Origin: Methanosarcina sp. ERenArc_MAG2
GTDB taxonomy: Archaea > Halobacteriota > Methanosarcinia > Methanosarcinales > Methanosarcinaceae
Assembly: GCA_023955635.1 (NCBI GenBank)
Contig: JAMXHR010000001.1
Coordinates: forward strand, 248,001-312,000
Reading direction: 5' to 3'
DNA length: 64,000 nucleotides
In this document: piece after piece, positions 990 through 45,699 of the stretch
Layout of the letters: each line of letters starts with the position of its first letter
Numbering within the stretch: the stretch's first letter is position 1
The notes under the pieces: model-generated
The model's database searches: none
What the model saw: the letters and a program-made list of their open reading frames with translations, nothing else
Told to the model about the DNA's origin: nothing
Program-made: the position numbers and the translations under genes

Positions 990-2716
990 AAGGTGAAATT
1001 TATCGTGTGGCTGGGCCTGTCGTCACTGCTATCGGCTTGCAGGCAAAAATGTATGACCTGGTTAAAGTCGGTAATGAAGGTTTATTGGGTGAAGTCATCC
1101 AGATAATAGGGCCCAAGACCATCATCCAAGTATACGAAGAGACTGCAGGCGTCAAGCCAGGGGAACCCTGTGTATCCACAGGGATGTCTCTGTCCGTGGA
1201 ACTTGGTCCTGGTCTTCTTTCCAGTATTTATGATGGAATTCAAAGGCCTCTGCACGTCCTGCTAGAGAAGATGGGCAGCTTCATCCAGAGAGGCGTCACT
1301 GCAGACGGACTTGATCACAAAAAACTCTGGGAATTCAAACCTGTTGTCAAGAAGGGAGATTTTGTAAAAGGCGGAGAAGTGATCGGAGTTGTTCAGGAAA
1401 CAGTAAACATTGAACACAAGATCATGATGCACCCGGATATCTCCGGTACAGTTTCGGAAATTAAGAGCGGAAGCTTCACTGTTATAGACACTATCTGTAC
1501 CCTGACTGACGGGAAAGAGCTGCAAATGATGCAGAGATGGCCTGTCAGAAGACCCAGACCTGTGGCGAAAAAACTTACTCCAGAAAAGCCTCTGGTAACA
1601 GGACAGAGAATCCTCGACGGGCTTTTCCCTGTAGCAAAAGGCGGAACTGCTGCAATTCCCGGACCTTTCGGATCGGGAAAGACCGTTACTCAGCAGCAGC
1701 TTGCAAAGTGGAGTGACACCGAAATTGTGGTCTATATCGGCTGTGGTGAGCGCGGAAATGAAATGGCAGATGTTCTAAGTGAGTTCCCTGAACTCGAAGA
1801 CCCGCAGACCGGACGCCCATTGATGGAGCGTACTGTCCTTATTGCTAACACTTCAAACATGCCTGTGGCTGCAAGAGAAGCATCCGTGTACACCGGGATC
1901 ACCATTGCGGAATACTTCCGTGACATGGGATTAGACGTGTCCCTTATGGCAGACTCCACCTCCAGGTGGGCAGAAGCCATGAGAGAAATCTCCTCCCGTC
2001 TGGAAGAAATGCCTGGTGAAGAAGGTTATCCGGCATACCTGTCTGCAAGGCTTGCCGAATTCTACGAGCGTTCCGGTGTTGCAATATCCCTTTGCGGTGA
2101 AAAAGGCTCCATTACTGTTATTGGAGCAGTATCTCCACCTGGCGGTGACTTCTCAGAGCCTGTTACGCAGAATACTCTGCGTATAGTGAAAGTGTTCTGG
2201 GCTCTCGATGCCAAGCTGTCTCAAAAGCGTCACTTCCCGGCTATCAACTGGCTGAACAGTTATAGTCTATACAAGGAAAGCCTTAATGACTGGTTTACTG
2301 AGAACGTGGCTTCTGATTACGTGGCTATGAGGGAAAGAGCAATGGGAATGCTCCAGACAGAATCCGAACTGCAGGAAATCGTGCAGCTTGTGGGTTCCGA
2401 CGCTCTGCCAGACGATCAGCAGCTTCTGCTTGAAATTACCCGTATGATCAGAGAAATTTTCCTGCAGCAGAATGCATTCCACCCAATAGATACCTACAGC
2501 CCGTTCTCTGAGCAGTACAGGATCATGCAGGCAATCATGAGATTCGGAGACGCTGCACAGGAAGCTTTGAAATCAGGTGTTCCTGTCTCGGAAATTGTCA
2601 AGATGTCATCTAAGGATGAGCTTCCCAAGGTTAAGTTCGAGGAGAACTTCGATGCTTCTATGAACGCTGTACTGGCAAAGATGGATAAAGAGTTTGCAGC
2701 CCTGAGAGGTAGGTAA
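980..2716 (+). CDS. ahaA: A1AO ATP synthase catalytic subunit A
   Basis: This is the catalytic A subunit of the archaeal ATP synthase, which makes ATP from the ion gradient built during methanogenesis. It has 578 residues, normal for the family. The Walker A motif GPFGSGKT lies near residue 229, followed by the catalytic GERGNE region and the SRWAEAMRE segment. The long insertion before the nucleotide-binding domain that separates A from B subunits is present. It starts with GTG inside the end of ahaF and is two bases upstream of ahaB. The frame is intact throughout. Confidence 0.98.
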
Positions 2717-2718
2717 GT

Positions 2719-4101
2719 ATGGTAAAAGAATATAAGACAATCACTCAGATTGCAGGGCCTCTTGTCTTTGTTGAAAAAACAGAGCCTGTAGGCTATAAAG
2801 AAATCGTTACTGTCAACCTGCCTGACGGAACTACCCGCAGAGGCGAGGTGCTGGACTCTTCAACGGACATAGTGGTTATCCAGATTTTTGAAGGTACTGG
2901 AGGTTTGAACAAGGATTGTGGTGTGGTCTTCACAGGGGAAACCCTGAAGCTTCCCGCATCCATCGATCTCCTCGGCAGAATCCTTTCAGGTGCCGGTGAC
3001 CCTCTGGATGGCGGGCCCAGAATAGTGCCAGACAAGCTGCTGGACATTAACGGGGCTGCAATGAACCCATATGCCAGGTTGCCTCCTAAGGATTTCATCC
3101 AGACAGGCATCTCCACAATCGACGGGACAAACACCCTGGTTCGTGGACAGAAACTGCCTATCTTCTCAGCATCAGGTCTTCCGCACAATGAAATTGCCCT
3201 GCAGATCGCAAGGCAGGCTTCTGTGCCCGGATCCGAAGCAGAGTTTGCAGTGGTTTTCGCTGCAATGGGTATCACCAATGAAGAAGCCCAGTATTTCATG
3301 AGCGACTTTGAAAAGACAGGCGCTCTGGAAAGGGCAGTCGTGTTCCTTAACCTGGCAGATGACCCTGCTGTTGAGCGTCTCATCACCCCACGTATGGCAC
3401 TGACAGCAGCCGAGTATCTGGCATACGAGCATGGCATGCACGTTCTCGTCATCCTAACTGACATAACTAACTATGCAGAAGCTCTCCGTCAGATGGGTGC
3501 CGCTCGTAATGAAGTGCCTGGCCGTCGTGGATATCCGGGTTACATGTACACTGACCTTGCAACTCTCTACGAGCGTGCTGGTATTGTCAAGGGTGCCAAG
3601 GGATCCGTTACTCAGATTCCGATTCTTTCAATGCCTGGTGACGACATCACCCACCCGATCCCTGACCTGTCAGGGTATATTACTGAAGGCCAGATCGTGG
3701 TTTCCAGGGAACTGCACAGGAAAGGTATCTATCCACCAATCAATGTGCTGCCGTCCCTATCGAGGCTGATGAATTCCGGTATCGGAGCAGGTAAGACAAG
3801 GGAAGATCACAAGGCTGTTTCTGACCAGATGTACGCAGGTTATGCAGAAGGGCGTGACCTGAGAGGTCTCGTGGCCATCGTCGGTAAAGAAGCTCTGTCC
3901 GAGAGAGACACAAAGCTCCTCGAGTTTGCTGACCTTTTCGAAAACGAGTTCGTCCGCCAGGGCAGAAACGAAAACAGGACCATTGCAGATACACTGGACG
4001 TCGGCTGGAAGATCCTCGCACACCTGCCAATAAACCAGTTGGGTAGGATTGACAACAAGTATATCCAGAAATATCATCCTGCACACAGAAAGGCTCAGTG
4101 A
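2719..4101 (+). CDS. ahaB: A1AO ATP synthase regulatory subunit B
   Basis: This is the non-catalytic nucleotide-binding B subunit, which alternates with A in the A1 hexamer. It has 460 residues. In place of a Walker A motif it has [10 protein letters not shown] near residue 150, as expected for B subunits. [20 protein letters not shown] is the strongly conserved central block. The ATG is two bases after the ahaA stop, and the TGA at 4099-4101 lies just before ahaD. The gene is intact. Confidence 0.98.
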
Positions 4102-4106
4102 TTGAC

Positions 4107-4730
4107 ATGGCTCAAGACGTAAAACCAACTCGGTCGGAGCTAATCGAGCTCAAGAAAAAAATCAAGCTCTCTGAAAGTGGGCACAAGCTCCTTAAGATGA
4201 AAAGAGACGGTCTTATTCTTGAGTTCTTCAAGATCCTTAACGAGGCAAGGAACGTCAGAACCGAGCTGGACGCTGCCTACGCAAAGTCTGTGGAAAAAAT
4301 CAATCTCGCCTCTGCCGTTGACGGGATGGTTACTGTCAAGTCAACAGCCTTCACGGCGAAGGAATCTCCCGAAATTCAGCTTTCAGGGCATAATATCATG
4401 GGTGTCTGGGTGCCGAAGATCAGTTCTACGGGAGTCCGTAAATCCCTTCCTGAAAGGGGTTACGGGATAATCGGTACAAATTCATACATCGATGAGACTG
4501 CCGATGCCTATGAGGACCTTGTGGAAAAGATTATCACGGCCGCAGAGCTGGAAACTACAATGAAAAGGCTTCTTAATGAAATCGAGAAGACCAAGAGGCG
4601 TGTGAACGCTCTCGAATTCAAAGTAATTCCCGAACTCATCGCAACCATGAAGTATATCCGCTTCGTCCTTGAGGAGATGGAAAGGGAGAATACTTTCCGG
4701 CTGAAGAGGATCAAAGCAAGGACCAAATAA
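4107..4730 (+). CDS. ahaD: A1AO ATP synthase subunit D
   Basis: Subunit D is the central rotor shaft of the A1 domain, a long antiparallel coiled coil. The translation MAQDVKPTRSELIELKKKIK followed by a long charged helical protein of 207 residues fits the family. I chose the ATG at 4107. A GTG at 4098 inside the ahaB stop region would add three residues and is the alternative, with GAAAGG a few bases upstream. The protein ends FRLKRIKARTK, a typical basic tail. ahaG follows after 17 bases. Confidence 0.95.
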   Translation: MAQDVKPTRSELIELKKKIKLSESGHKLLKMKRDGLILEFFKILNEARNVRTELDAAYAKSVEKINLASAVDGMVTVKSTAFTAKESPEIQLSGHNIMGVWVPKISSTGVRKSLPERGYGIIGTNSYIDETADAYEDLVEKIITAAELETTMKRLLNEIEKTKRRVNALEFKVIPELIATMKYIRFVLEEMERENTFRLKRIKARTK

Positions 4731-4747
4731 TCAATCTTGATTTGAAT

Positions 4748-4915
4748 ATGGCAATAAGCAACGATCAACCGAATCTGATTGAAAAAGCGGTATTCAAGTT
4801 AGGTGAACCCCAAAACCAGGCACGCCTGATTCAGGTAGCCTGGCGTATTTCCCTTCTAATGATGATTTTGGGGTTCATTATTGTCATAAGAACAATTTCT
4901 CCAAACTTTATGTGA
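4748..4915 (+). CDS. ahaG: Small membrane protein at the end of the ATP synthase operon (AhaG type)
   Basis: This 55-residue frame begins with ATG 17 bases after ahaD. It has a polar N-terminal half (MAISNDQPNLIEKAVFKLGE) and one clear membrane helix around residues 34-49 (ISLLMMILGFIIVIRT). A small hydrophobic gene called ahaG is known at this exact place in the Methanosarcina mazei aha operon, and its function is not established. The position, size and single helix make the match convincing. There is no further gene in the operon; T-rich stretches follow near 4958-4972. Confidence 0.8.
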   Translation: MAISNDQPNLIEKAVFKLGEPQNQARLIQVAWRISLLMMILGFIIVIRTISPNFM

Positions 4916-5097
4916 CCTGAACTTCAGGATGGTTTCCATCTCTAAGTCTCGGCACAGGTTTTTGTTTTTCTGATTAAAGCCGTATCTTTTTCAATTCAAT
5001 TTTTTAATTTTCTATCAAGAGCCTTCAAATTTTTGTTTTCTCGTTTGCCTTTAAATTAGAAAGCTATTTTAACGACAAATTTCAATTTTAATTTCTT

Positions 5098-7394
5098 ATG
5101 CAAAATGAAGCCAGACTTCTTCATGTGACCGGCACTGTGCAGGGTGTTGGTTTTCGTCCCTTCATATACCAGCTTGCACAAGCCCATGGACTTTTCGGAT
5201 ATGTAAAAAATCTCGGAAACTACGTGGAAATTCTTATCGAGGGAAACCCGGCTAGCCTTGAAAGTTTTCTTCGAGATCTGCCTGAGAAAAAACCTCCTCT
5301 TGCTAAAATTACAGAGCTCAAAATAAAAAATGTCCTTTTTTCCGCTTCTTTAAAATTCACCATCGTGCCAAGTGAGCCTGGAGCTTTTGAAAATTCAATT
5401 ATTCCTCCTGATACGGCTATTTGTGAACAGTGCAGGTCAGAGATCTTTGATTCTGCGTCCAGATATTACCATTATCCTTTTACAGTTTGCACTAATTGTG
5501 GTCCCCGTTATACAACAGTCCGGACTCTTCCTTATGACAGGGAAAATACTACTATGGCAGATTTCCTCTCTGCGCGGAGTGCGAGACAGAGTATACCAAT
5601 CCCTTTAATCGAAGGTATCATGCCCAACCGGTCTGCTGCCCAAAGTGCGGGCCAGAAATCTGGCTTTCAGACTATGAAGGAAATGTACTGGCACAGGGTT
5701 ATGAAGCAATCTCAAAAGCTTCTGACTTTCTTCAGCAGGGCTCAATCCTTTCTGTCAAGGGGTTCGGAGGTTTTCATATTGCCTGCAATGCTCGAAAGGA
5801 GGAGCCTGTAAGGGAGCTTCGAAGGAGGTTGGTGCGTCCGGAGCAGCCTTTTGCGGTCATGGCAAAAAATCCTGAGGTTGTGGAGTCCTTTGCGGAGCTT
5901 GAAGGCGCAGGGAGGGAATATCTTACATCCCGTCGCCGCCCTATTACTTTGCTTTCCATGTCAAAGGAATTCAACCTGGCAAAATCCGTTTCCCCGGGCC
6001 TGCATAATATAGGGGTCATGCTTCCCTATACAGGCACGCAGAACCTGCTTTTTGACCGCGTACCTGACGCTGTATATGTCATGACCTCGGCAAACCTTCC
6101 AGGAAGGCCTATGGTTATCGAAAATAAAGAAGCGCTTGAAAAACTCAACGGGATTGTCGATTTTCATCTGCTGCATAACAGGGTTATTGCAAACAGGAAC
6201 GATGATACGGTTATCCGGATTGTAAACGGACGGGCGGCCTTTATCCGGCGTTCCAGGGGTTTCGTGCCTGAACCTGTAGAGTTGCCTTTTGAAATCGAAG
6301 CTTCTATAGGAGTAGGGGCTGAAATGAACTCCACGGTGACTGTGGCAAAAGGAAAACTTGCCTATATCTCTCAGTATATAGGAAACACCAACCACGTAGA
6401 AACCTTCAGGTACCACTCAGAAGTTGTCAGACACCTTATTCGTCTCACAGGAATAGAGCCTCTTCATTGGGGCTGCGACCTGCACCCTGCTTTTAACACA
6501 ACCCGGTTTGCAATGAATATGGGAGGGAAAAATACACTTCAGGTTCAACATCACCATGCCCACATGCTTGCACTTATGGCTGATAACTCCCTGCCGCTGG
6601 ACTCACGGATGCTAGGAATTGCTCTTGATGGAGTTGGATACGGTAGTGACGGCACGGTCTGGGGGGAGCTTTTCGAGTCCTCTTACTTCGGATATGAACG
6701 CCTTGGACATTTGCTTTCTCAACCAATGCCCGGGGAGACCTTGCATCGAAGATACCTTCAAGGATGGTTCTGGGTATTCTTTTCGAGAGGCTTGGGAGGG
6801 AAGAGCTGGAAAAGCTTCCCCTCATCTTTCCACAAGGAGCTATGGAGTTCTCAACAATTATGAAACAGCTTGAAAAGGGGGTAAATGTTGTCCAAAGCAG
6901 CAGTACAGGGAGAGTACTGGATGCAGCTGCAACTCTTCTTGGAATTTGCGGAATAAGAACCTATGAAGGAGAGCCTGCAATGAAACTCGAATCTGCCGCA
7001 AGGAATAGTATTCGTATAGTAGATCTCCCTCTGGTCTTCAAAAAGCAGAAAAATCAGGAGTTCCTGTGCTTGACACGACCGAGCTTCTTCTGGGGGTTTA
7101 TGAACTTTTAGGAAAGTACTCTTCTGCTGATCTTGCTTTTGCGGTTGAGGAAAACCTTGCAAAGGGAATATCGGAACTTGCCATTACCCTTGCAGCAAAA
7201 GGGGCCTTGAAACTATAGGCCTGAGTGGAGGGGTTGCCTATAATGACCATATAACTTCCTGCATTGCAGGAACTGTTCGAGAAGCAGGTTTTGAATTTCT
7301 AGCTCACCGCCAGGTTCCCTGTGGAGACGGATGTATTTCCTTCGGGCAGGCTCTTGCGGCAGGCCTGAGAGTAGAGCCTGAGGGTAAGGCATGA
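5098..7394 (+). pseudogene. hypF: Carbamoyltransferase HypF, reading frame broken four times
   Basis: HypF makes the thiocarboxamide that becomes the cyanide ligand of [NiFe] hydrogenases. The domains are all recognisable: acylphosphatase (VTGTVQGVGFRPF, residues 9-21), the double zinc finger (CEQC, CTNCGPRY, then CAEC and CCPKCGP in the next frame), a YrdC-like domain, and the Kae1-like C-terminal domain. The frame is lost four times, at 5565 (CC), 6733-6736 (GGGG), 7040-7044 (A run) and 7197-7204 (A and G runs). Adding one base at each restores a protein to the TGA at 7392-7394. No residues are otherwise missing. Because essential genes in this window carry the same lesion, I suspect sequencing error rather than true decay. 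Confidence 0.88.
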
Positions 7395-7660
7395 GAATAA
7401 CACCTGAGAATAACATATAAATACACTTTTACGTCCTGACCTACCAATTCTATTTCTAAAATGAAATTTATATTTACTCAACGATGGGTAAATTTCGAGC
7501 CATCTCGGCATCCGTGTGATTAATATTTTTTTTGCTCCAATTAAAGTGTCTTCTGTTCTAATTCGAGTGTCAATATTCAAAATGTACTGAAATTTGGTCA
7601 GAAAGACTGAAATACAAAATTAAATAAATGATCCATGCTTAGATAGGAGAGGGAGCATAA

Positions 7661-8116
7661 ATGGGGCTAGGTAGTATACGCATTAGAGTCATAACAAGCA
7701 GGGATGAAATTTTAGGTATGGGGGCAGAGGAGAAGGCAGTACACCTTGCTTTTAGACCTTCGGACAGGGATCTTTTTAGTCTGGTCAAGAAATGTCCCGG
7801 AATAGAACTACTTCAGCTTCCTGCATCTTCTTATGAAGGGCTTTCTAAATTTATCAAGATGTACCTTGCTTCTTCAGGTATTCATCTGGTAAAAGGAGAT
7901 GTCAGCGGGCACTGGCATGACCTCAATAATTATTTCGTAATACCTGCTTACGTGCTTGAAAAGATAAAAGAACTGGAAGTTCAGGGAAGAACCGAGGAAG
8001 AAATAATTTGTGAGATTACGAGTATAAGAAAAATCAGCCCTGACATGATCCTTCACCTGCTTCACAGCTCATTCCTGGCTTCAGGCCCTGAGTGGCCGCG
8101 AATAACCAAAATTTAA
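7661..8116 (+). CDS. DUF1699 family protein
   Basis: This 151-residue protein belongs to a small family (DUF1699) largely confined to Methanosarcina and its relatives, with no established biochemical function. Conserved blocks include RIRVITSRDEI, AVHLAFRPSDRDLFSLV and KGDVSGHWHDLNNYF. The C-terminal third is helical, and the IPAYVLEKIKELEVQGRTEE block resembles a small helical DNA- or RNA-binding unit, though this is speculative. AGGAGAGGGAGC upstream is a good ribosome site. A second member lies at 11837-12244, beyond the IS element. Confidence 0.8.
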   Translation: MGLGSIRIRVITSRDEILGMGAEEKAVHLAFRPSDRDLFSLVKKCPGIELLQLPASSYEGLSKFIKMYLASSGIHLVKGDVSGHWHDLNNYFVIPAYVLEKIKELEVQGRTEEEIICEITSIRKISPDMILHLLHSSFLASGPEWPRITKI

Positions 8117-8139
8117 ACTAGTCTGGCTTTACTTCTTGC

Positions 8140-9494
8140 TTATAGGCGTTTCCACCATTTTCTTGAGGCTTTCTGTTCTTCTATCTGCCTTAGCCCATCA
8201 GACGCGAATTTCTGCTGCATCCTGTACTTTCTGTTTTCCTCGTTAACCCTGGAAAAGGCCTCTTCTTTACTTGCGAGTGTTCCTTTTAATTGCTTTATCA
8301 ACTCTTCTTTTTCTCTAAGTTCGACTGCCAGTTTTTCTTCTCCTTCATAGGCTGAGAGCTGCTTCTCAAGCTTTCTTACTTTTTCTTCACTTGTAGCAAA
8401 CATAACTTCCATAGTATTTATCGTTCTTTCTTTTCCGGTAAGCTTCTCTTCAATTCTCTTCATCTCCCCAACTTTTGCAATAACCTCTCCAGCCAGGGTC
8501 TTAAGGTCTCTATCCTTTAGCGAGATACTTTCTTCAAGTTTTTCTACTTCTCTTTCTTTTGCCGAAAGCCTCTCACTGATGAATGTTATATTTTCTACTT
8601 TTTCTTTAAGTTCTTGAGTAAGGCTATTTTTCTCGCCTTCTTTTTCTATGAGCCCGGACTCAAGTTTTCCGGTTTCTTCATTCTTATAAGCAAGTTTTTC
8701 TTTAAGGTCCCACAATTCAGAATCTTTTTCATGGAGAAGTTTTTTGTGCTCCTCAAGTTTCATTTCATTGCCTGCAAGCTTTTCCTCAAGGCTTCTGGCA
8801 ATTCCCTTCGAATCCGAAAGAAACTTTTCAAGAACATCTATTTTTTCGGTTTTGGATTTCAGCTCTTCTTTTAGTCTGTCTATTTCTTCTTTGCCTGCAA
8901 ACTTATCATTAAGTTCTTTTATTCTCTGTGTTTTTTCGTCAAGTTTTATCTCTAGGTTTTTCAACTCAATCTCGCTGCTTTCAAGCTGGAGATAAAGGGA
9001 ATTGGTATCAGAATTTTCGTTATTTTCTTCGATGTTGAAAGCCAGAGAATCTTCTTTTTCACTTTCAAAGGCCTGCAGCTTTTTTTCTCTGAAAGAAGAC
9101 CGATTTGCCCTCTCGTGTTTTCACAGATTTCAGCCCAGGCAAGGATGGAAGCTACTGGTGTTATTCTCTTAAAAACAGTATCTCCTATACTGCAATCGTA
9201 AACTCTACTGGCAATATAACCTTCCAATGTATCCAGCTCAAGGTTAGGGTCTCCTAGTCTTGAGTTTGTTGCATTTCCTTTTTTTGCCTGCCCGCCGTTT
9301 TCCTTCAGGCAATTGATGGCTTCGGAAAATATCTTCCAGGGGAGAAATGGCTGATTTTTCAGGTTGTCAACATAGACTCCATCCGTTTCTGATCGGGCTT
9401 CAAAAAATTGTTTCCCGCTCATCAGCGGAATCTTTGCCGGATTTCCTTTTTTATCAAATTGGTTTTTTATTTTTGAGACAACAGGATCTTCCAT
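8140..9494 (-). CDS. Coiled-coil protein with conserved N-terminal domain, one frameshift
   Basis: The function is unknown. Residues 1-130 or so form a compact domain (MEDPVVSKIKNQFDKKGNPA onward) that I do not recognise. The remaining 300 residues or so are almost continuous coiled coil rich in K, E and L heptads, ending in a basic ASRKWWKRL tail. The two halves are in different frames. Adding one base to the run of seven T at 9080-9086 joins them as EKKKLQAFESEKEDS, so a single gene of about 450 residues is likely. No signal peptide or membrane segment is visible. It is convergent with the DUF1699 gene at 7661. Confidence 0.65.
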
Positions 9495-9584
9495 GCATGA
9501 GCCTCTTCAAAGTCGTGTCTGGAATATAATGAACATGACATTTAATAAAAGTTGTGCGATTTGCCTGACATTTTTTAAGTTAGT

Positions 9585-10723
9585 TAGGAGTTACGCAGTT
9601 GGCTCTTGACATATCGTTTTTAACAACTTCCCATCCATACGAATTAATTTAATGTGTATATTGGGTTATTTAAATATGCTGTCACTGCCCCTCTCCGAAT
9701 TTTCATCGTACTTTCGAACCAGGATATCCCCGTTTTGATTCTTTGTAACTCCAGTCTAAGGAACGCTCTTAATGAGAACATTATATGTGCTCTTTGTGAC
9801 TCTTCCTTTCTTGCCTGACATTTTTCGACCCCACAGAACTGCTTTATTCCTCTGTGGTATTCCTCAATTTTCCATGACTTCTTTGCCAACTCTTCACGTT
9901 TTGATTCATCCATATCCTGTACATCTGTAACCCAGTGTTGCGTGTCTCCATCTTTTGAAACTATCCTAAACACCTTTACAAATCCATATGCTTTGAGATG
10001 AACCACAAGTCCTTTTGGAGGAATCTCTACTGTTTCAAGTGGCACATTTCCCTTCTTATCAGGATTTACCAAACGATTTTTCTTTAACCTTGTAAGGAAA
10101 TGCCATTCTTTCTTCTTTATTGCTTTAAGGTTTTTCACACTTGCGTACCATGTATCAAACAAAACAAATTCGGGATTAAAACCACGTTCTTCGGCTTTGT
10201 CAAGCATATCGCGGAAATGGTCATTCTTTGTTTTGTCGTCTTCATCAATGTTATAAATTCGAAAATCGATAGGTATAACAGTTGTACCGTCTGTCCAAAC
10301 TAAGGTGACCAAACCTATCCCCTTTACAGCACGATGATGTTTTCCACTCCACATACGACGAACAAAAGCCATTTCTTTTGCGTATGGTTTATCTAATGTT
10401 GAATCGTCAATAATTAGAAAGCCTTCTTCAGGCTTAACATGACTTTTTACTTCTTCCCATAATGCTTCTGTGTCTGGAGGTTGCCTTTGAAGGCAACGAG
10501 TGAAAGCATCGTGAGAAGGAGCATTAGCTACGATTGGATAACATCTAGCAGCTTCAGTACAGCTGAAAACGTTAGATGCCGCAATGAGAAAATTAATGAA
10601 ATCAATGTCAATACACTTAGGTGGGTTTATATCCATAACTCCGTACGTTTTTGGGGAACTATGGAGATATTAGTATATTTTAAATGATATTACTTTTTCG
10701 GCATTTCAAATGCGTAAGTCCTA
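9585..10723 (-). mobile_element. Insertion sequence with DDE transposase, intact ends and target duplication
   Basis: An element of about 1139 bp contains one transposase gene. Its ends are imperfect inverted repeats: TAGGAGTTACGCAGTT at 9585 and the complement of TAGGACTTACGCATTT ending at 10723. TTAGT occurs directly outside both ends (9580-9584 and 10724-10728) and is read as a 5-bp target duplication. Intact ends, duplication and open frame point to a fairly recent insertion. The family is IS4/IS701-like on the basis of the transposase; exact assignment needs a database search. Confidence 0.85.
9644..10636 (-). CDS. DDE transposase (IS4/IS701-like)
   Basis: This 330-residue transposase is the only gene of the IS element at 9585-10723. 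The likely catalytic residues are the first Asp in FLIIDDSTLDKPYAK (near residue 77), the second Asp in VLFDTWYAS (near residue 161), and the Glu in the SWKIEEYHRGIKQ block (near residue 265). That last block is the family's conserved C-terminal signature. The start ATG at 10636 is about 90 bases inside the element. The frame is intact, so the element could be active. Confidence 0.9.
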   Translation of the reverse strand: MDINPPKCIDIDFINFLIAASNVFSCTEAARCYPIVANAPSHDAFTRCLQRQPPDTEALWEEVKSHVKPEEGFLIIDDSTLDKPYAKEMAFVRRMWSGKHHRAVKGIGLVTLVWTDGTTVIPIDFRIYNIDEDDKTKNDHFRDMLDKAEERGFNPEFVLFDTWYASVKNLKAIKKKEWHFLTRLKKNRLVNPDKKGNVPLETVEIPPKGLVVHLKAYGFVKVFRIVSKDGDTQHWVTDVQDMDESKREELAKKSWKIEEYHRGIKQFCGVEKCQARKEESQRAHIMFSLRAFLRLELQRIKTGISWFESTMKIRRGAVTAYLNNPIYTLN

Positions 10724-11012
10724 TTAGTTATTCTTATTTTTCGGGAAGAATCAGCTTGACTTTTCTTCGAAAACAACCTCTTTCAGCCTGGAAGCAGGTC
10801 TGCCTGGCTGGCATATAGGAAGTACAAATAATTTTCTGGGCGATGAGTCTAATTTGCAGGTTTTGCTTTCCTTATATAACCTGTAAATGTTACAGCAGAC
10901 ATTCGAGTATTTATAGTTTTAAATCTAGAATTTCCCACTAAAACGAGCTTCTTTTGGACAAATAAATACAGCTGACCCGCTGAAATCCTGCTGGTAGAAA
11001 ATGAGATCCTAG

Positions 11013-36499: not shown

Positions 36500-37045
36500 T
36501 TATGCGTTATGAATTTCGCTTATAAGTGTGCTATGCACTTCACTTATATTTTGTGAATATACATGGAGACAACTGTCATTGTTAACCTTTATACACAATT
36601 CTTCCCGTTCTTTTTCCTCGCAAACATTTGTAACGACAGTGATTTCGCGTATATCTTTCAGTGCGACTTCATATAATAATTTATTAAAGCCTTTGTTCCA
36701 ACCAAACATTCTAAGATTTGTTAAATATATAAAACAGTAATTCCAGGTCTTACCCTGGTTATGGGAATAGGAACCATAAAATTTCATCATAGCTTCTTCT
36801 CCCGGCATAAGGGCTGGCTTGCTTACTCTATGCTCGAGTTCCCAAGCTCTTGTACTTTTGTCGAACTGTTCAAATATCCCGTATTCGAGCATTGTTTCAA
36901 TTCCAGCAGCTAATAGCTTGAGACTCAAACCTATCAGAGGTACGCCTGCAACTGAGATCAAAACATCGGCATTGAGAACAAGCCCTTTGTTAAGTAACCT
37001 GTCCAAAAATTCCACCAGTGTGTCCTCTTCACGTTCCGGTATCAT
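36500..37045 (-). CDS. gvpM: Gas-vesicle protein GvpM with extra C-terminal domain
   Basis: The first 70 residues are the GvpA/J/M fold (EEDTLVEFLDRLLNKGLVLN and ADVLISVAGVPLIGLSLKLL), needed in small amounts for vesicle nucleation. About 110 further residues follow (SKPALMPGEEAMMKFYGSYS through VHSTLISEIHNA). The strand-rich pattern and final helix look like a GRAM or bacterial PH-type lipid/protein-binding domain. Normal GvpM is about 80-90 residues, so this is an unusual fusion. The ATG overlaps the gvpL stop (ATGA). Confidence 0.85.
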   Translation of the reverse strand: MIPEREEDTLVEFLDRLLNKGLVLNADVLISVAGVPLIGLSLKLLAAGIETMLEYGIFEQFDKSTRAWELEHRVSKPALMPGEEAMMKFYGSYSHNQGKTWNYCFIYLTNLRMFGWNKGFNKLLYEVALKDIREITVVTNVCEEKEREELCIKVNNDSCLHVYSQNISEVHSTLISEIHNA

Positions 37046-37841
37046 GCTTGAAAATCCCTTTTAAGATCAACAAAACTAAAGGGTGCCCAGGGTCCTGTAA
37101 ACCTGACCGCGAACCCTTCACGCTCGTTTATTTGTTCAAGGACATGCCCCAGATTTTCGACATTTTTATTAGAAACAAGACAAGAAAGTGTAATCACAGA
37201 TTTTTTGCCCTTGTACTTCTCAGGAATATGAAACTTTTTTCCTCATGGATCAGCTGTTTTACAGTCTCATTTATAGCTTTTCCAAATTCGGTTCCAAGTT
37301 CTGAAAGTTCCTTTATTATGGCTTGATCCCGCCGGACATCAAACTGTTTTTTAAAAATGTAACTTTTTCCCTTGGACATTTCATCTATTTTTGCATTCAA
37401 TGCTTGAAGTTCAAGACTGTCTTTGAGAATCTTTTCAGCAAGTAATTTCGGATCATAAAAGATTTGGACTAAATACTCTGCAGTATCATTCAATCTTTCA
37501 AGTTCACCTTTAAAGGATTCATAGTTTTTCTGCAGCCAGGATCTTATGGTTTCGTCATCCCCGAGTACGACACATCCAAACGAAAATGGGAGTACTGTAT
37601 TAAATTTTTCAGTTATCTTGTCAATCGCATAGTTATGAGAGAATATCCATTCTTTTGCCTGTTGTTCATCCTTTGCTGGTTCGGGTTTCGTCTCTGAAAA
37701 ATGCACAGATGCAGCAATGTCTCTAAAGGCAATTGTATACACTAAATTGTCGTTAATTCCAATCGGCCCCAGGCTCTGTTCAGTGGCTGTATTGAGAATT
37801 GAGTAAAGATAAAGGCATTTCTCCTGTTGTATTTCTTTCAT
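37042..37841 (-). CDS. gvpL: Gas-vesicle protein GvpL (GvpF/L family), one frameshift
   Basis: GvpF/L proteins are minor vesicle components thought to help early assembly. The start is MKEIQQEKCLYLYSILNTA, and the family's FGCVVLGDDETI region follows. The frame breaks at the T run 37235-37240. With one base added the protein continues HEEKKFHIPEKYKGKKSVIT to the hallmark FTGPWAPFSFVDLKR and stops at 37042, overlapping gvpM. The reconstructed length is about 266 residues, which is normal. Its ATG overlaps the predicted gvpK stop. Confidence 0.85.
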
Positions 37842-38154
37842 TTTTTTCGGCCTCCTCAATCCACCTTGTTGGATTTAAGAATTTATCAATTACCTCATCT
37901 ACAACCTTATCAAGTCCGTCCCGCACAGAAAAAACACAATCTTCAAGTTCATTATCAGTTTTTATGACCTCAATTGCTTCATGCAGGTCCGAAAGGGCAT
38001 CTCCCAGCCTTTCAATCTCCTCGTCGCTCAAAGATTCATTTTCTATCCTCAACAATGCCTGTTTTTCAAGTAAGTCCTGAATAATTTCAACCAGAGCTAT
38101 AACAAGGCCCAATAATCCTTTCTTTAAATTTTTTTCATCGATATTAATTGACAT
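37838..38154 (-). CDS. gvpK: Gas-vesicle protein GvpK, ends uncertain through frame breaks
   Basis: The sequence is KKGLLGLVIALVEIIQDLLE followed by QALLRIENESLSDEEIERLG, the conserved GvpK core. It starts MSINIDEKN at 38154. As written, the frame is continuous with the upstream gvpH and reads on to 37780 over the start of gvpL. One extra base in the T run 37841-37847 would give EEAEKK and a stop overlapping the gvpL start. I regard the read-through tail and the gvpH fusion as probable artefacts. Confidence 0.8.
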
Positions 38155-38798
38155 CGTTTTCCTTTTTATCTTCAGCTGAAGTACCCCGTTCCTGTAGCTT
38201 TTCTCTTCGATCGATCCCGATTTACATGGCAACGATATTCTCTTACTGTAAATACCTGCAGAAATATCCAACTTATCGCCTTGAATTTCTATGTTTATGT
38301 CCTTCTCTTCTATATCAGGAATTTGAGCTATTACATAAACAGAATCCTGTTTTTCAAACACATCAAAAATCGGTTCCTTCGACTCTGGAACTTCTACTGT
38401 TACGTTTTTTACTTCTCTTGAAGCTGTGCCTGGAATTTTAGAAGATTCTTTTCTGGAAGACAGGGGTCTTATGGACAGTCCATAGCTTACTACTGGTTTG
38501 TTGCTCCAGCCGCTTTCAAGCCTGTGCTTTATTTCAAGATCTGTCTCAGCAATTTTCTGCTTAAATTCTGGGGAGGTATTTTCAAGAATTTTTACGATGC
38601 GACCGAAGCCCGGAATTGATCCTGCGATATCTCCCACAAAGCTGGAATGTTCGTAATCTGTAGCTCTGCTTTCTTCAAGTCTCTGTTCAAGTTCTTTAAT
38701 TCTATTTCCCAGGGCTTGGATTTTAGTTTCCAGGTCTTCGTTTTTTATGTCACCTTTTTTTCCTTCTCATCGTTATCCTTCTCATCACTATTACCCAT
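38144..38798 (-). CDS. gvpH: Gas-vesicle protein GvpH, Hsp20-like, frame breaks at both ends
   Basis: The central part has the small-heat-shock (alpha-crystallin) fold: EPIFDVFEKQDSVYVIAQIP, then DINIEIQGDKLDIS and SYRNGVLQLKIKRK. GvpH is thought to keep gvp proteins folded or soluble. The N-terminus, from ATG 38798 (MGNSDEKDNDEKEKK), joins a coiled-coil stretch (LETKIQALGNRIKELEQRLE) if one base is added to the T run at 38755-38761. At the 3' end a base added near 38157-38167 creates a stop overlapping the gvpK start. The reconstructed length is about 217 residues. Confidence 0.78.
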
Positions 38799-38881
38799 GG
38801 ATTGATCTCTCCCAATCAATTAAACTATAATTTTTTACGCAAATTATACTGTCTAAAATACTAAATTAGCAGTAACGACTA

Positions 38882-39295
38882 TTACGGTTGATTTTGTTCA
38901 TCAACTGTGTAAGTACCATCTTGATTAAGCTCTATGTAACTTGCGGGGATTATTGCATGTTTTTTCTTAGAAAGTGGACTTACCCATCCGCAGATTGGGC
39001 ATCCCTTTTCGATTAAAAACTTTTCTTCTTTTCGATTCCCACAATCCGGACAATTCGCATAGATTTCATGTGCTTTTTTCCAGGCAGGAGCATCAAGATT
39101 TGTCCCCGAAGGAAACTCAAGTCCGTATTTTGCTGCGGTTTCAAAGGATGCTAGAGTGGCTGTGATTTTAATTCCAAGAAGCTCAGTTCCCGCGACAGAT
39201 ACTGAAATATCAGCATTCAGTACAAGCCCTTTATCCAGAATCCTGTCTATTACATCCACAAGTCCCCCGGATTCTCTAACGACACTTCCGTTCAT
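38882..39295 (-). CDS. gvpJ: Gas-vesicle protein GvpJ fused to a zinc ribbon
   Basis: Residues 1-75 or so are a GvpA/J-type domain (LVDVIDRILDKGLVLNADIS and VSVAGTELLGIKITATLASF). A four-cysteine zinc ribbon follows: CPDCGN (residues 82-87) and CPICGW (98-103). A short tail ends NQDGTYTVDEQNQP. GvpJ is a minor vesicle protein involved in nucleation, usually about 100-110 residues without cysteines. The zinc ribbon is the unusual part and could be a protein or nucleic-acid contact. The frame is intact. Confidence 0.82.
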   Translation of the reverse strand: MNGSVVRESGGLVDVIDRILDKGLVLNADISVSVAGTELLGIKITATLASFETAAKYGLEFPSGTNLDAPAWKKAHEIYANCPDCGNRKEEKFLIEKGCPICGWVSPLSKKKHAIIPASYIELNQDGTYTVDEQNQP

Positions 39296-39360
39296 AATAT
39301 TTCTCCTTTCATAGTATTTCCTATTTTGATGATTTCAGATACGTACTTTATTTTGTACTT

Positions 39361-39377
39361 CGAATGCGTAATTCCTA
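39361..39377. repeat. Solitary IS end
   Basis: CGAATGCGTAATTCCTA matches the right end of the IS at 9585-10723 (CAAATGCGTAAGTCCTA) at 15 of 17 bases. No matching left end was found nearby. It lies between gvpJ and the next gene upstream and may be a leftover of an excised element. Confidence 0.45.
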
Positions 39378-39379
39378 GC

Positions 39380-39688
39380 TTATTTTCGTCTCTTTGGATG
39401 GCGTGTCACAGGATTCTGGGTCAAAAGTTTCGGGTAAAATTTCAGAGTATGGAAATCACTGGATTTTGTCTCAATCGTGATATTGTAATCATACTCAGCT
39501 TTCGAGCCAAAAGGCCCATTGGCTATGCCTGATCCGGATTTTTGACTGACTTTTTGATGATCCATTTCTTCAATTGATTTTAAAAAATTATACAATTCAG
39601 AAGGCTTTCCTTCGGCTTTTACAGATTTTGATTTATGTTCTTCCTTTCCATGCGAAAATTTATCAGGACAAGATGTCGGTTCTGACAT
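39380..39688 (-). CDS. Gas-vesicle cluster protein in the gvpI position
   Basis: About 102 residues start MSEPTSCPDKFSHGKEEHKS; the ATG overlaps the end of gvpG. It is charged and probably disordered at the start, then LYNFLKSIEEMDHQKVS, and a very basic end (VTRHPKRRK). In haloarchaeal clusters, gvpH and gvpI lie between G and J, and GvpI is small and basic, so I place it there by position. No sequence motif confirms it. The stop is next to the solitary IS end, so the C-terminus may have been altered. Confidence 0.5.
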   Translation of the reverse strand: MSEPTSCPDKFSHGKEEHKSKSVKAEGKPSELYNFLKSIEEMDHQKVSQKSGSGIANGPFGSKAEYDYNITIETKSSDFHTLKFYPKLLTQNPVTRHPKRRK

Positions 39689-39944
39689 TAAGATTCGTCT
39701 CCAGAACTCTTTCTGCAAATTTGAGTTGTTTCATGAGCTCGGTTCTTTTTTCCTCATATTCTTCCGTCGAGAGCTCATCAAACTCGTAGAGCATTTGATT
39801 TTCCTTTATCTTGTTTTTAATTTTGTCCAGGTTATAAAGTTCCCTATAAGCAAAGTCCCTTATTATTTCAATGTTAGAAATAAGATCTAGGCCGGGAATT
39901 GAAATCCCCAGCATTTTCAGTAATATATCGTCAAGGAGAAACAT
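39663..39944 (-). CDS. gvpG: Gas-vesicle protein GvpG
   Basis: The 93-residue protein begins MFLLDDILLKMLGISIPGLD and continues with the conserved helical ENQMLYEFDELSTEEYEEKR. This is the GvpG signature of an N-terminal FLLDDLL and a charged C-terminal helix pair. GvpG is a minor protein needed for assembly and interacts with GvpF/L. The ATG is adjacent to the gvpF stop (one-base overlap), and the end overlaps the next gene by 26 bases. Confidence 0.9.
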   Translation of the reverse strand: MFLLDDILLKMLGISIPGLDLISNIEIIRDFAYRELYNLDKIKNKIKENQMLYEFDELSTEEYEEKRTELMKQLKFAERVLETNLNVRTDILS

Positions 39945-40615
39945 TACCTGAAGCCACCCTTATTATTAGATAGGATGTGTATGTCCACAAAATTGTAGGG
40001 GGGCCATGGGCCACTGTACTTAAATTTATAATCTTTGTAGTCGAGTTTAAGCTCTTCAACCTCATCTGAAAAAGCCTGGACTTTTTCCTTTTCTACAAGA
40101 TAAGAAGTATTCATCAAAAGGCGGGAACTGAAAAGGTTAAGACTCTTCGAATGAGAAGTTATTTTCCCGAGCCTTTCAATTGACTCGGCTTTACATTGTT
40201 CTATTTTTTGATTGTCTTGCCCACCATCCCTTGGCAAAACAATTTTTATCCCGAGTTCAACTTTATTATCCACGAGTGCGATTGTTTTTTTAATAGCTTT
40301 TTTCCCGGCTCGCATGGAAAAATCTATCAATTTTTTATTTTTGAAGACCATTCCGTACGCCATCGGGATAACACTATACTGTTTCATTACTTCATTGACA
40401 ACATTTTGATGGGTTATTATTTCCTCTTCATTGTCTATCTCATATTTCTTAAAGGGTTCACTGCTTACCACAGGGTAAAAATCCGCGCAATCCAGTGTAT
40501 ATACCTCGTGTCCCTGAAAACCTATATTACCAAAATTTATAGTCTCCTTTTGGGATTTGATTATACAATAGACATATTTACTATTTTCAGGAGCGCTCTT
40601 CATCGAATATCCCAT
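39944..40615 (-). CDS. gvpF: Gas-vesicle protein GvpF (GvpF/L family)
   Basis: The 223-residue protein starts YVYCIIKSQKETINFGNIGF, has the conserved VIPMAYGMVFKNKK middle, and ends with the family hallmark FKYSGPWPPYNFVDI. GvpF is a minor vesicle protein that binds GvpA and helps start assembly. It is the first gene of the F-G-I-J-H-K-L-M run. The frame is intact. MGYSMKS could start at either Met. Confidence 0.9.
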   Translation of the reverse strand: MGYSMKSAPENSKYVYCIIKSQKETINFGNIGFQGHEVYTLDCADFYPVVSSEPFKKYEIDNEEEIITHQNVVNEVMKQYSVIPMAYGMVFKNKKLIDFSMRAGKKAIKKTIALVDNKVELGIKIVLPRDGGQDNQKIEQCKAESIERLGKITSHSKSLNLFSSRLLMNTSYLVEKEKVQAFSDEVEELKLDYKDYKFKYSGPWPPYNFVDIHILSNNKGGFR

Positions 40616-40864: not shown

Positions 40865-41164
40865 TTAGTTCTCGTCCTCTATGAACATATCACATCTGCG
40901 CCGCATTCCTATTTTATTATAGTTTATAATCTCCATATTTGAGTTAAGTTTCATTTCATAGATGCTCAGTATATCCTGTGTATCGGGAATTGATTTTCGT
41001 TCAAGGACCTCAACCAGGAGTTTAAAGATATCCTCTTCTCGGGACATACTTACAACTCCCTCCGCTTTCTTTCTAGTAATGCTTTCAATCACTAAAATCG
41101 CTTTATCAAGGTATTCAACCAATGAAATCGTTTTTATTCCATCTTCTTTAGCATGAGTGTTCAT
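40865..41164 (-). CDS. gvpO: Gas-vesicle protein GvpO
   Basis: The 99-residue protein's C-terminal half, EVLERKSIPDTQDILSIYEM followed by LNSNMEIINYNKIGMRRR, matches the GvpO pattern (E-x-x-R-I-P-D-T-x-D-x-L-x-x-Y-E-V...L-x-x-Y-x-R). In haloarchaea GvpO is essential for vesicle formation and affects gvpA expression. It follows gvpN after 530 bases that hold a MITE, so a separate promoter is likely. The gap of 249 bases to gvpF has no gene. Confidence 0.8.
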   Translation of the reverse strand: MNTHAKEDGIKTISLVEYLDKAILVIESITRKKAEGVVSMSREEDIFKLLVEVLERKSIPDTQDILSIYEMKLNSNMEIINYNKIGMRRRCDMFIEDEN

Positions 41165-41694: not shown

Positions 41695-42750
41695 TCAAAC
41701 TGATTTATTTCCGGATTTCTCTGTCTTAAGCATCGGCATTGGATCTTGTTTTTTATTAAGCTCCGAAACTGATTTATTTACGGGTTTTTCTGTCTTAAGC
41801 ACCGGCATTGGATCTTGTTTTTTATTAAGCTCCGAAACTGATTTATTTACTGGCTTCTCTGTCTTATGCAGTTCAGAATTGGAACTTATTTTTTCTGCAT
41901 TAAGCTCTGAAATAACTTCAGTTACAAGCTTCTCTTTCTTAAGCAGTTCAGCATTGGAACTTGTTTTTGTTGCAATCACATCGACAAATAATTGTTCAAA
42001 ATACTCTTTTGTATTGCCGTTCAGATTTTTCAGAGCTTTTCCAACCATTATGCCGGACCTGATTCCAGGTTTCTGGATCTCATTAATCTGATTCCTAATT
42101 TTCCGGATAACAGTTACTATTTTATTAACTTCATTCTCCGGCAGGCCTGTATGCTCTTGTACTATCTGAACCTCGGTTTCAAAACTATAGTAGTCCATAT
42201 ATATACCCACCATTCGGTCCAGCAAAGCATCCTGAGGAACATGCACCCCTGCATATTCAACCGAGTTGCTTGTCAGAATTGCCCGGAAATCCGGATGCAC
42301 TTTTATGTATTTTTCCCCACCAAACCTGGCGGGTAATTCAAGGATTCCTTCCTCAAAAACCGAGAGTAAAACATTGTTTGCAATTGGTTTTGCCCTGGAA
42401 AACTCGTTATATATGAGGGTATATCCGTATTTACATGCAGTAGCCAGAGGATTATCAATCCATTCGGGTTTTATAACGTCCGAACTTTTAAAAACATTAT
42501 GAATATAATTGTCTCTTATTGATTCCTGCTTGATTTGAGCATATCCACCTATGAGATCTTTTGTTGTAAGGGACTCATCTCCATTAACCCATATAACAGG
42601 GCGTCCAAGTTCTTTTGCAATATGTACAGCAAGACTTGTTTTTCCACAACCTGTAGGACCAATCAAGTGCACCGGATATCCGGTTTTAATCCACAATTTT
42701 ATTCTTTCACTTAATTTTTGGATCTCAGTACTATTGATAAAATACTCCAT
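41695..42750 (-). CDS. gvpN: Gas-vesicle AAA-type ATPase GvpN with repeat tail
   Basis: GvpN is a MoxR-like AAA+ ATPase that promotes vesicle growth. The Walker A motif is HLIGPTGCGKTSLAVHIA (residues 28-45), Walker B is LIYNEFSRAK, sensor 1 is RAILTSNSVEY, and LLDRMVGIYMDY is the arginine-finger region. After residue 265 there is an unusual tail of about 85 residues with a repeated unit (KTEKPVNKSVSELNKKQDPM, twice plus partial copies). The small frame upstream (42711-42923) could be a lost N-terminus if one base is missing at 42750-42752. Confidence 0.92.
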   Translation of the reverse strand: MEYFINSTEIQKLSERIKLWIKTGYPVHLIGPTGCGKTSLAVHIAKELGRPVIWVNGDESLTTKDLIGGYAQIKQESIRDNYIHNVFKSSDVIKPEWIDNPLATACKYGYTLIYNEFSRAKPIANNVLLSVFEEGILELPARFGGEKYIKVHPDFRAILTSNSVEYAGVHVPQDALLDRMVGIYMDYYSFETEVQIVQEHTGLPENEVNKIVTVIRKIRNQINEIQKPGIRSGIMVGKALKNLNGNTKEYFEQLFVDVIATKTSSNAELLKKEKLVTEVISELNAEKISSNSELHKTEKPVNKSVSELNKKQDPMPVLKTEKPVNKSVSELNKKQDPMPMLKTEKSGNKSV

Positions 42751-42923
42751 TTCAGGGACAAGATACTTTTTTCTTCAGAGCTATTTTTCAAATTGGCATT
42801 GGACAGAAGTAGTTCCTTTATAGGTTTCAGGTCGTTGTCATTTGATTCCGGTTTTGTTTCCTCTAAAGTTTTATGAATAGGTTCGCCCCTTATTATTCTC
42901 GGATGCGTTGCTTTATATTTCAT
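42711..42923 (-). CDS. Small frame before gvpN, possibly its N-terminus
   Basis: The 70 residues start MKYKATHPRIIRGEPIHKTL, with AAAGAGGAAAG just upstream as a ribosome site. The last 14 residues overlap gvpN in another frame and look like read-through. One base added at the start ATG of gvpN would join LKNSSEEKSILSLK directly to MEYFINSTEI. It is either a small gvp accessory gene or a 57-residue extension of GvpN. I cannot decide from sequence alone. Confidence 0.45.
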   Translation of the reverse strand: MKYKATHPRIIRGEPIHKTLEETKPESNDNDLKPIKELLLSNANLKNSSEEKSILSLKWSILSIVLRSKN

Positions 42924-43763: not shown

Positions 43764-44132
43764 TTATCCATAAAATTCTTTGGTATAGAGTTCGATTTCG
43801 TTCTGGAAGCCTCTTATCTCGGACTCAAAACCACGAACTCCATCTCTCATCAAGCTTGATTTTTGCTCAAAACATTTGATTTTTTCATCTACTCCTTTCA
43901 TGATCTCTTCAACTCCAGATTGGACCTTAATGACTTTTTCCTTGTTCTCCAACTGAAGCTGTATTATTGCAGAATTAATCTCTGATACTGCATTTTTCTG
44001 TTCGAGTGCCTTAGCACTTATATCTCTGTTTAGATCAGCAACGCTTTTGTGCATGTTTTTGACTTCCTTTTCTATGCATACCTTTTTCTGGATTATTTTC
44101 TGCATTTTTGCAGATACACTGTTGTTATTCAT
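43764..44132 (-). CDS. Helical repeat protein in the gvpC position, candidate GvpC
   Basis: The 122-residue protein is wholly helical and highly charged. About three loose repeats are visible: SVADLNRDISAKALEQKNAV, SGVEEIMKGVDEKIKCFEQK and FESEIRGFQNEIELYTKEFY. Haloarchaeal GvpC, which binds the outside of the vesicle and stiffens it, has helical repeats of similar form, one of which also ends in FYG as this protein does. It also lies between gvpA and gvpN, as gvpC does in the A-C-N-O order. I propose a short GvpC; proof is lacking. Confidence 0.6.
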   Translation of the reverse strand: MNNNSVSAKMQKIIQKKVCIEKEVKNMHKSVADLNRDISAKALEQKNAVSEINSAIIQLQLENKEKVIKVQSGVEEIMKGVDEKIKCFEQKSSLMRDGVRGFESEIRGFQNEIELYTKEFYG

Positions 44133-44662: not shown

Positions 44663-44893
44663 TTATGCTGCAATCGCTGGTTTTTCTTCATTTGCAGCAA
44701 TTTCAATCTTTGTAATTTCTTCTGCATAGTGCAGGAAGGTGTCAACGGATGCAACAACTACCCTTGCCTGAATGGCCAGGATTTCAATGCCAACAAGTGA
44801 GACTCTTGCCCATACGTCAACAACTATACCTTTATCGAGGATCCTGTCGAGCACTTCTGCTAGACTGGAACTGTCTGGACTCTGTGATACCAT
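44663..44893 (-). CDS. gvpA: Gas-vesicle structural protein GvpA, copy 4
   Basis: GvpA is the main shell protein whose ribs form the gas vesicle. There are 76 residues from ATG 44893 ([20 protein letters not shown]), with the core [20 protein letters not shown] and the conserved second helix. An upstream GTG would add three residues, but GAGAGTG is better spaced for the ATG. The protein is identical to copy 3. It is the last of four tandem copies. Confidence 0.95.
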
Positions 44894-44930
44894 TTTTAAC
44901 ACTCTCTCTTTTTGTTAATTCCTTAGAAAA

Positions 44931-45161
44931 TTATGCCGCAATCGCTGGTTTTTCTTCATTTGCAGCAATTTCAATCTTTGTAATTTCTTCTGCATAGTGC
45001 AGGAAGGTGTCAACGGATGCAACAACTACCCTTGCCTGAATGGCCAGGATTTCAATGCCAACAAGTGAAACTCTTGCCCATACGTCAACAACTATACCTT
45101 TATCGAGGATCCTGTCGAGCACTTCTGCTAGACTGGAACTGTCTGGACTCTGTGATACCAT
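44931..45161 (-). CDS. gvpA: Gas-vesicle structural protein GvpA, copy 3
   Basis: The 76-residue protein is identical in sequence to copy 4, with one silent GAG/GAA-type difference in the gene (forward position 45069). The spacer with its GAGAGAGTG ribosome site is also nearly identical to the other copies. The tandem arrangement with 268-269 base spacing suggests repeated unequal exchange or gene conversion. Confidence 0.95.
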
Positions 45162-45199
45162 TTTTAACACTCTCTCTTTTTTGTTAATTTCTTAGAAAA

Positions 45200-45430
45200 T
45201 TATGCCGCAATAGCTGTTTTTTCTTCATTTGCAGCAATTTCAATCTTTGTAATTTCTTCTGCATAGTGCAGGAAGGTGTCAACGGATGCAACAACTACCC
45301 TTGCCTGAATGGCCAGGATTTCAATGCCAACAAGTGAGACTCTTGCCCATACGTCAACAACTATACCTTTATCGAGGATCCTGTCGAGCACTTCTGCTAG
45401 ACTGGAACTGTCTGGACTCTGTGATACCAT
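45200..45430 (-). CDS. gvpA: Gas-vesicle structural protein GvpA, copy 2
   Basis: The 76-residue protein differs from copies 3 and 4 only near the C-terminus (EEKTAIAA instead of EEKPAIAA). The core shell-forming region is the same. Being close to the promoter, it should be strongly expressed. Confidence 0.95.
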
Positions 45431-45468
45431 TTTTAACACTCTCTCTTTTTTGTTAATTTCTTAGAAAA

Positions 45469-45699
45469 TTATGCTGCAATCGCTGGTTTTTCTTCATTTG
45501 CAGCGATTTCAATCTTTGTAATTTCTTCTGCATAGTGCAGGAAGGTGTCAACGGATGCAACAACTACCCTTGCCTGAATGGTCAGAAGTTCAATACCAAC
45601 AAGTGAGACTCTTGCCCATACGTCAACAACTATACCTTTATCGAGGATCCTGTCGAGCACTTCTGCTAGACTGGAACTGTCTGGACTTTGTGATACCAT
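45469..45699 (-). CDS. gvpA: Gas-vesicle structural protein GvpA, copy 1
   Basis: This is the first copy in the transcript, 76 residues. It differs from the other copies at two core positions ([13 protein letters not shown] instead of [13 protein letters not shown]). Its upstream sequence is unique, lacking the spacer shared by the others, and gives ATGGTGAATAG before the ATG. It may have been the template for the later copies. Confidence 0.95.

Follow-up and report, generated by a model that had tools for sequence, protein, structure and literature searches.

Background

The closest described systems are the GvpC proteins of cyanobacteria and haloarchaea. GvpC of Anabaena binds helix alpha-2 of GvpA along the rib and follows the ribs at 33 residues per four GvpA subunits, which are spaced at 12.1-12.7 A (PMC9994262, PMC10185304). 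In haloarchaea, GvpC binds GvpN, GvpO, GvpF, GvpH, GvpI and GvpL by means of its C-terminal domain (PMC9372576). For methanogens, according to a 2022 review, gvp clusters are without gvpC, that of M. barkeri being gvpAAA-NOFG-JHKLM (PMC9501494), and a 2015 review gives no gvpC for M. barkeri (PMC4586473). In a transcriptome study of Methanothrix thermoacetophila, gvpN is Mthe_0058 and gvpA is Mthe_0060, and the intervening number, Mthe_0059, is not listed (PMC10470525). In the part of the literature that was covered, we found no assignment of GvpC in Methanosarcina or Methanothrix; an earlier reading of this DNA (the sequence-only reading) had said the same of Methanosarcina.

In this work, we describe a gene found in the window, a stretch of 64,000 nucleotides from a Methanosarcina genome. 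From sequence comparisons and a structure model, we consider it quite probable that the gene encodes a methanogen GvpC that works like GvpC.

Organization of the gvp cluster

In the window, a complete gvp cluster occupies the minus strand, in the order gvpA (four copies), candidate gene, gvpN, gvpO, gvpF, gvpG, a small ORF, gvpJ, an ORF that joins an Hsp20-like part (gvpH) to gvpK, gvpL and a gvpM-like gene. The features are as follows.

44663-44902, 44931-45170, 45200-45439 and 45469-45699, minus strand: four near-identical gvpA copies (ORFs)
44055..44132, minus strand: upstream ORF extension, probably untranslated (in-frame stop in orthologue L035; ATG at 44132 lacks a Shine-Dalgarno site)
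43764..44054, minus strand: candidate methanogen GvpC, 96 aa, conserved ATG, predicted single helix, dN/dS about 0.3
43767..43787, minus strand: C-terminal motif YTKEFYG (alignment and genus-wide DNA scan)
41695..42923, minus strand: gvpN (TIGR02640, 8.5e-103), its N-terminal part (42711-42923) out of frame with the rest
40865..41164, minus strand: gvpO (PF05800, 1.1e-17)
36500..40615, minus strand: gvpF, gvpG, small ORF, gvpJ, Hsp20-like(gvpH)-gvpK ORF, gvpL (two frames) and gvpM-like gene (profile matches and comparison with a second cluster)

The candidate sits between gvpA (44663-45699) and gvpN, where it had been placed earlier; the ORFs and the Pfam and NCBIfam matches of the neighbours agree on this position. 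The gvpA copy that was tested matches PF00741 (2e-14) and NF006874 (1.2e-38).

The second cluster, which is nearly complete, belongs to the window's own genome (G000, contig C16, locus L170, about 2062-10765) and contains two gvpA copies and a longer candidate GvpC. Compared with the gvpN of that cluster, the gvpN of the window lies in two frames (42711-42923 and 41695-42750) split at a run of A (TGAAGAAAAAAGTATC), with the AAA domain intact; the split may be an assembly error or a real frameshift. Likewise, gvpL (37042-37859, minus strand) is divided between two frames where its counterpart in the second cluster is intact, and the two splits suggest either base errors in the assembly or early decay of the window cluster. 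The Hsp20-like (GvpH) part and GvpK, which share a single ORF in the window (37780-38637, minus strand), are two ORFs in the second cluster. The small ORF in the gap between gvpG and gvpJ (39380-39718, minus strand) has no Pfam match; in the second cluster, the corresponding position is occupied by an ORF with 40% identity to it. PadR-like regulator genes, judged by eye, lie beside several methanogen gvp clusters (L170, 376-783; L169, 1445-1861; L128).

Translation start and selection

The ORF of the candidate spans 43764-44132 on the minus strand (122 codons), and no open frame is present on the plus strand across the same interval. Translation probably starts at 44054 rather than at 44132, because the ATG at 44054 is conserved, a Shine-Dalgarno-like site lies upstream of it (GGAAGT in the window gene and GGAGGT in an orthologue), and in another orthologue, L035, a stop codon interrupts the frame shortly before this ATG. 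In addition, no Shine-Dalgarno site precedes the ATG at 44132. The product would then have 96 residues; the 122 residues given earlier match the length of the ORF, but probably not that of the protein.

When the window protein is compared with its four closest homologues (66-75% identity), dN/dS is 0.28-0.40, and the values among the remaining homologues are mostly 0.2-0.3. Judged from these ratios (about 0.2-0.4), the gene is under purifying selection. The reading frames are intact in five species, and YxxEFYG is invariant in the alignment of all seven sequences of the genus. In the window's genome, the terminal motif followed by a stop codon occurs exactly twice, once in each gvp cluster; because of this restriction and the dN/dS values of the four closest homologues, we regard the gene as more than a chance reading frame. 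When the DNA of 31 genomes of the genus was scanned for the motif with a stop codon after it, 11 matches were obtained, seven of which are candidate genes in gvp clusters. The remaining four represent one repeated stretch (TTCTRGCYGGATTTTTACGGATAA), and three of them contain an in-frame TAG.

Distribution of the family

Relatives were gathered by searches with the candidate protein, and then with growing alignments. In the window's genus, five genomes have a relative between gvpA and gvpN, and in two of the five (the window's own among them) a longer copy lies in a second gvp locus. Further relatives occur in Ca. Methanoperedens, in Methanothrix and in one more family of the phylum, and nearly all methanogen gvp loci examined have a family gene in the arrangement gvpA-X-gvpN.

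gvpN is present in 34 of the 238 genomes of the class. Two of the 34 (G006 and G118) have gvpA directly followed by gvpN and lack the family gene; all other readable gvpN-bearing genomes of the class carry it. The contig ends before the gvpA-gvpN site in G532 and G538, and the candidate and gvpN are on separate contigs in G079. Conversely, no strong family match without gvpN was found in any genome of the order. The direct succession of gvpA and gvpN, with no gvpC between them, was seen in the haloarchaeal plasmids L018 and L025 as well as in the methanogen loci L014 and L169 (G006 and G118).

Family members range from 71 to 363 aa in length. The homologues within the genus Methanosarcina have 71 or 103 residues, and the second-cluster copies have about 160-173. 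All end in [YF]xx[ED]FY(Y)G, to which one member (L042) adds a short extra tail; the census script required this motif, and its universality is based on profile searches and locus readings made without that requirement. The longer methanogen relatives, which were detected with family profiles, are unnamed in Pfam and NCBIfam.

Predicted structure, indels and repeats

AlphaFold2 predicts one uninterrupted alpha-helix over residues 5-95 of the 96 residues of the window protein (mean pLDDT 95.1), as expected from the earlier description of an all-helix product. Taken together with the hydrophobicity analysis, this model indicates a long proline-free amphipathic helix. The hydrophobicity of the window protein peaks at 101.5 degrees, a signal as strong as which was seen in none of 500 shuffles, and hydrophobic periodicity near 100 degrees per residue is present in all family members tested. 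In contrast, the three loose repeats ending in EIELYTKEFYG that had been described in the sequence-only reading were overstated, since the motif is present a single time, at the C-terminal end. The internal periodicity, with z 3.8 at lag 18 and z 3.3 at lag 25 as its best values, is weak and reflects that of an amphipathic helix.

Among members that are at least 60% identical, 23 of the 29 distinct indels have a length of 7 or 25 residues, compared with 15% expected under uniform lengths of 1-40, although single events that recur in more than one pair account for some of the 29, and slippage of heptads may play a part. Indels of these two lengths keep the helix face in register.

Repeats of 58 residues are found in the Methanothrix members (z 6.5 to 21), with 86 identical positions out of 125 in the most regular member. 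In the AlphaFold2 model of a Methanothrix relative, a small N-terminal domain of three helices is followed by a linker predicted at low confidence and by one helix of 206 residues. In L095 (a Methanothrix relative, 2516-3412, minus strand), sub-threshold matches point to a SAP/Rho-N-like N-terminal domain in residues 1-48. Foldseek gave no significant match for the Methanothrix model, the most consistent ones being the SAP-like folds of FAN1, Tho1 and Rho (N-terminal domain). A SAP/Rho-N-like domain on the longer GvpC candidates is an unusual addition to a gas-vesicle protein.

On the scale of PMC9994262 (about 8.3 residues per GvpA), 58 residues correspond to 6.9-7.2 GvpA subunits and 16.1 helix turns, and by analogy the Methanothrix repeat would fit seven GvpA subunits and 16 turns. 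Of the comparison between repeat length and GvpA spacing that had been proposed earlier, the part concerning the longer relatives points to a fit, whereas the window protein has no true repeats to which it could be applied.

Comparison with GvpC profiles

A profile search with haloarchaeal GvpC repeats had also been proposed, and it was negative: PF05465 (Halo_GVPC) matched neither the candidate nor any other sequence of the genome at E up to 10, with the control P0001 scoring 244.8 bits. By this model, the candidate is not a formal member of PF05465. Similarly, the candidate was matched neither by the PF01304 model of the 33-residue repeat (control P0003, 160.4 bits) nor by the NCBIfam GvpC models. 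Its matches in Pfam, NCBIfam, PHROGs, PADLOC and the PDB sequences, which were sub-threshold and either generic coiled-coil or unrelated, were rejected as chance.

A profile of the last 70 residues of the family scored nine haloarchaeal GvpC proteins at 24.6-38.4 bits, each alignment ending at FYG; the maximum was 20.7 bits for coiled-coil decoys, 8.3 for reversed sequences and 6.0 for shuffles. The decoys, chosen as the best false matches of the family, are mostly long ORFs of coiled-coil type that lack the end motif (L043-L051); they had matched weakly in whole-genome searches (E 1e-6 to 1e-3) and were rejected as relatives. In the reciprocal search, a haloarchaeal profile scored the family at up to 15.2 bits, compared with 6.5 for decoys and 9.0 for shuffles. 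When the terminal motif was removed, no advantage was left, since haloarchaeal GvpC scored at most 19.2 bits and decoys up to 22.2. Profile-profile comparison of the family and haloarchaeal GvpC gave a probability of 31%.

The motif itself is rare. In 265,012 ORF residues, terminal [FY]xx[DE]FYG was found only in haloarchaeal GvpC and in the methanogen family; it closes most haloarchaeal GvpC repeat domains, and YTKEFYG closes the candidate.

Other comparisons were negative. Cyanobacterial GvpC had no detectable similarity to the family profile (5.4 bits), a haloarchaeal C-terminal profile found nothing in the window's own genome, and eight haloarchaeal genomes contained no match to the methanogen profile A2 in a filtered search at E up to 10. 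The proteins encoded between gvpA and gvpN on Methylocella and Spartinivicinus plasmids, when scored, had no similarity to the family. The protein at this place on an Octadecabacter plasmid was also inspected.

Weighing the explanations

In favour of reading the candidate as GvpC, we counted its position, the co-occurrence with gvp clusters, the single amphipathic helix, the in-register indels, the end motif common with haloarchaeal GvpC, the profile scores and the fit of the 58-residue repeat; the sequences and the model thus support what the sequence-only reading had proposed. Counted against it were the absence of matches to existing models, of motif-free similarity above decoys and of similarity to cyanobacterial GvpC, together with the two genomes without the gene. 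This last point is tempered because some haloarchaea also have no gvpC between gvpA and gvpN. The link between the family and haloarchaeal GvpC is drawn from the rare common end motif, the gene position and the like build, and it makes common ancestry probable. The alternative is an analogous helical coat protein of independent origin, whose FYG end and position converged with those of haloarchaeal GvpC. It would agree with the failure of the Pfam models, with motif-free scores that do not exceed those of coiled-coil decoys, with an extra domain that is N-terminal in methanogens and C-terminal in haloarchaea, and with repeats of 58 residues as opposed to 32-38. However, a rare seven-residue motif closes a helical rod in both groups, the order gvpA-X-gvpN-gvpO is the same in these related archaea, and reciprocal profile scores lie above decoys when the motif is included, so that we consider convergence rather unlikely.

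A different role is conceivable as well: the protein may be an assembly factor, that is, a helical rod that acts with GvpN and GvpO or as a scaffold for GvpA polymerisation and is not kept on the finished vesicle. The closeness of the gene to gvpN and gvpO, the binding of several Gvp proteins by haloarchaeal GvpC itself (PMC9372576) and the extra SAP-like domain of the Methanothrix and Methanoperedens forms fit such a role, but expanded repeats, indels that preserve the register and an unbroken amphipathic helix suit binding along a periodic surface, and the end motif points to GvpC; we judge this role improbable. Much less credible still is that the Methanosarcina gene is a decaying, functionless remnant of a longer GvpC. 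The forms of 71-103 aa without an N-terminal domain, the frame splits in gvpN and gvpL and the longer paralogue in the same genome could be read in this way, but the splits may be assembly errors, and the dN/dS values, the intact frames in five species and the invariant C terminus argue for a maintained gene.

Proposed function

If the candidate is GvpC, it would be a short, proline-free, amphipathic single helix running over the outer side of the GvpA ribs and adding stiffness to the gas-vesicle shell. By analogy with Anabaena GvpC, it would bind helix alpha-2 of GvpA along the rib. With a length of about 14 nm, the helix of 96 residues would extend over about 11 GvpA subunits, each 58-residue repeat of Methanothrix would cover seven, and the conserved YxxEFYG end would probably cap the rod or provide a site for docking there.

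We further propose, at even chances, that methanogens own a GvpC family that was missed because its members are short and invisible to existing models. Its 58-residue repeat would come close to integral numbers of both helix turns (16) and GvpA subunits (seven), so that the rod could stay on the shell with one and the same face, whereas the 33-residue cyanobacterial design slips by 60 degrees at each repeat; the rod would be capped by FY(Y)G and, in Methanosarcina, reduced to a bare helix of 71-103 residues. If this is true, GvpC would be a common archaeal component that is absent only in some lineages, contrary to the 2022 review (PMC9501494). Species from which vesicles can be purified allow a direct test of this claim. 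With 71-103 residues, the protein would be unusually small for a natural GvpC, and such a protein and the 58-residue repeat might serve as new components with which the stiffness of acoustic gas-vesicle reporters could be tuned.

Relation to known systems

The relatives in Methanothrix and Ca. Methanoperedens have the same locus position, helix and end ([YF]xx[ED]FYYG) as the candidate, but they are longer (131-363 aa), most have the N-terminal SAP-like domain and a disordered linker, and those of Methanothrix have tandem repeats that are missing from the window protein. Cyanobacterial GvpC (PF01304; Nostoc, Anabaena) is also encoded between gvpA and gvpN and is also an amphipathic helix, with 33-residue repeats and an SIFG end where the methanogen family ends in EFYG. 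A coat along the GvpA ribs has been shown in the literature for Anabaena GvpC and is presumed for the candidate.

Haloarchaeal GvpC (Halobacterium pNRC100, WP_010890518.1) is a very acidic protein of 382 aa with seven repeats of 32-40 residues, features that the methanogen form lacks; the repeats of the Methanothrix relatives, at 58 residues, are longer. Past the motif it continues for about 130 residues with an acidic linker and a C-terminal zinc-finger-like domain, whereas the candidate ends at the motif. On the other hand, the haloarchaeal protein and the methanogen family have in common a proline-free amphipathic helical rod with autocorrelation lags of 14, 18, 25 and 32, and the haloarchaeal gene order gvpA-gvpC-gvpN-gvpO is the order found in the window.
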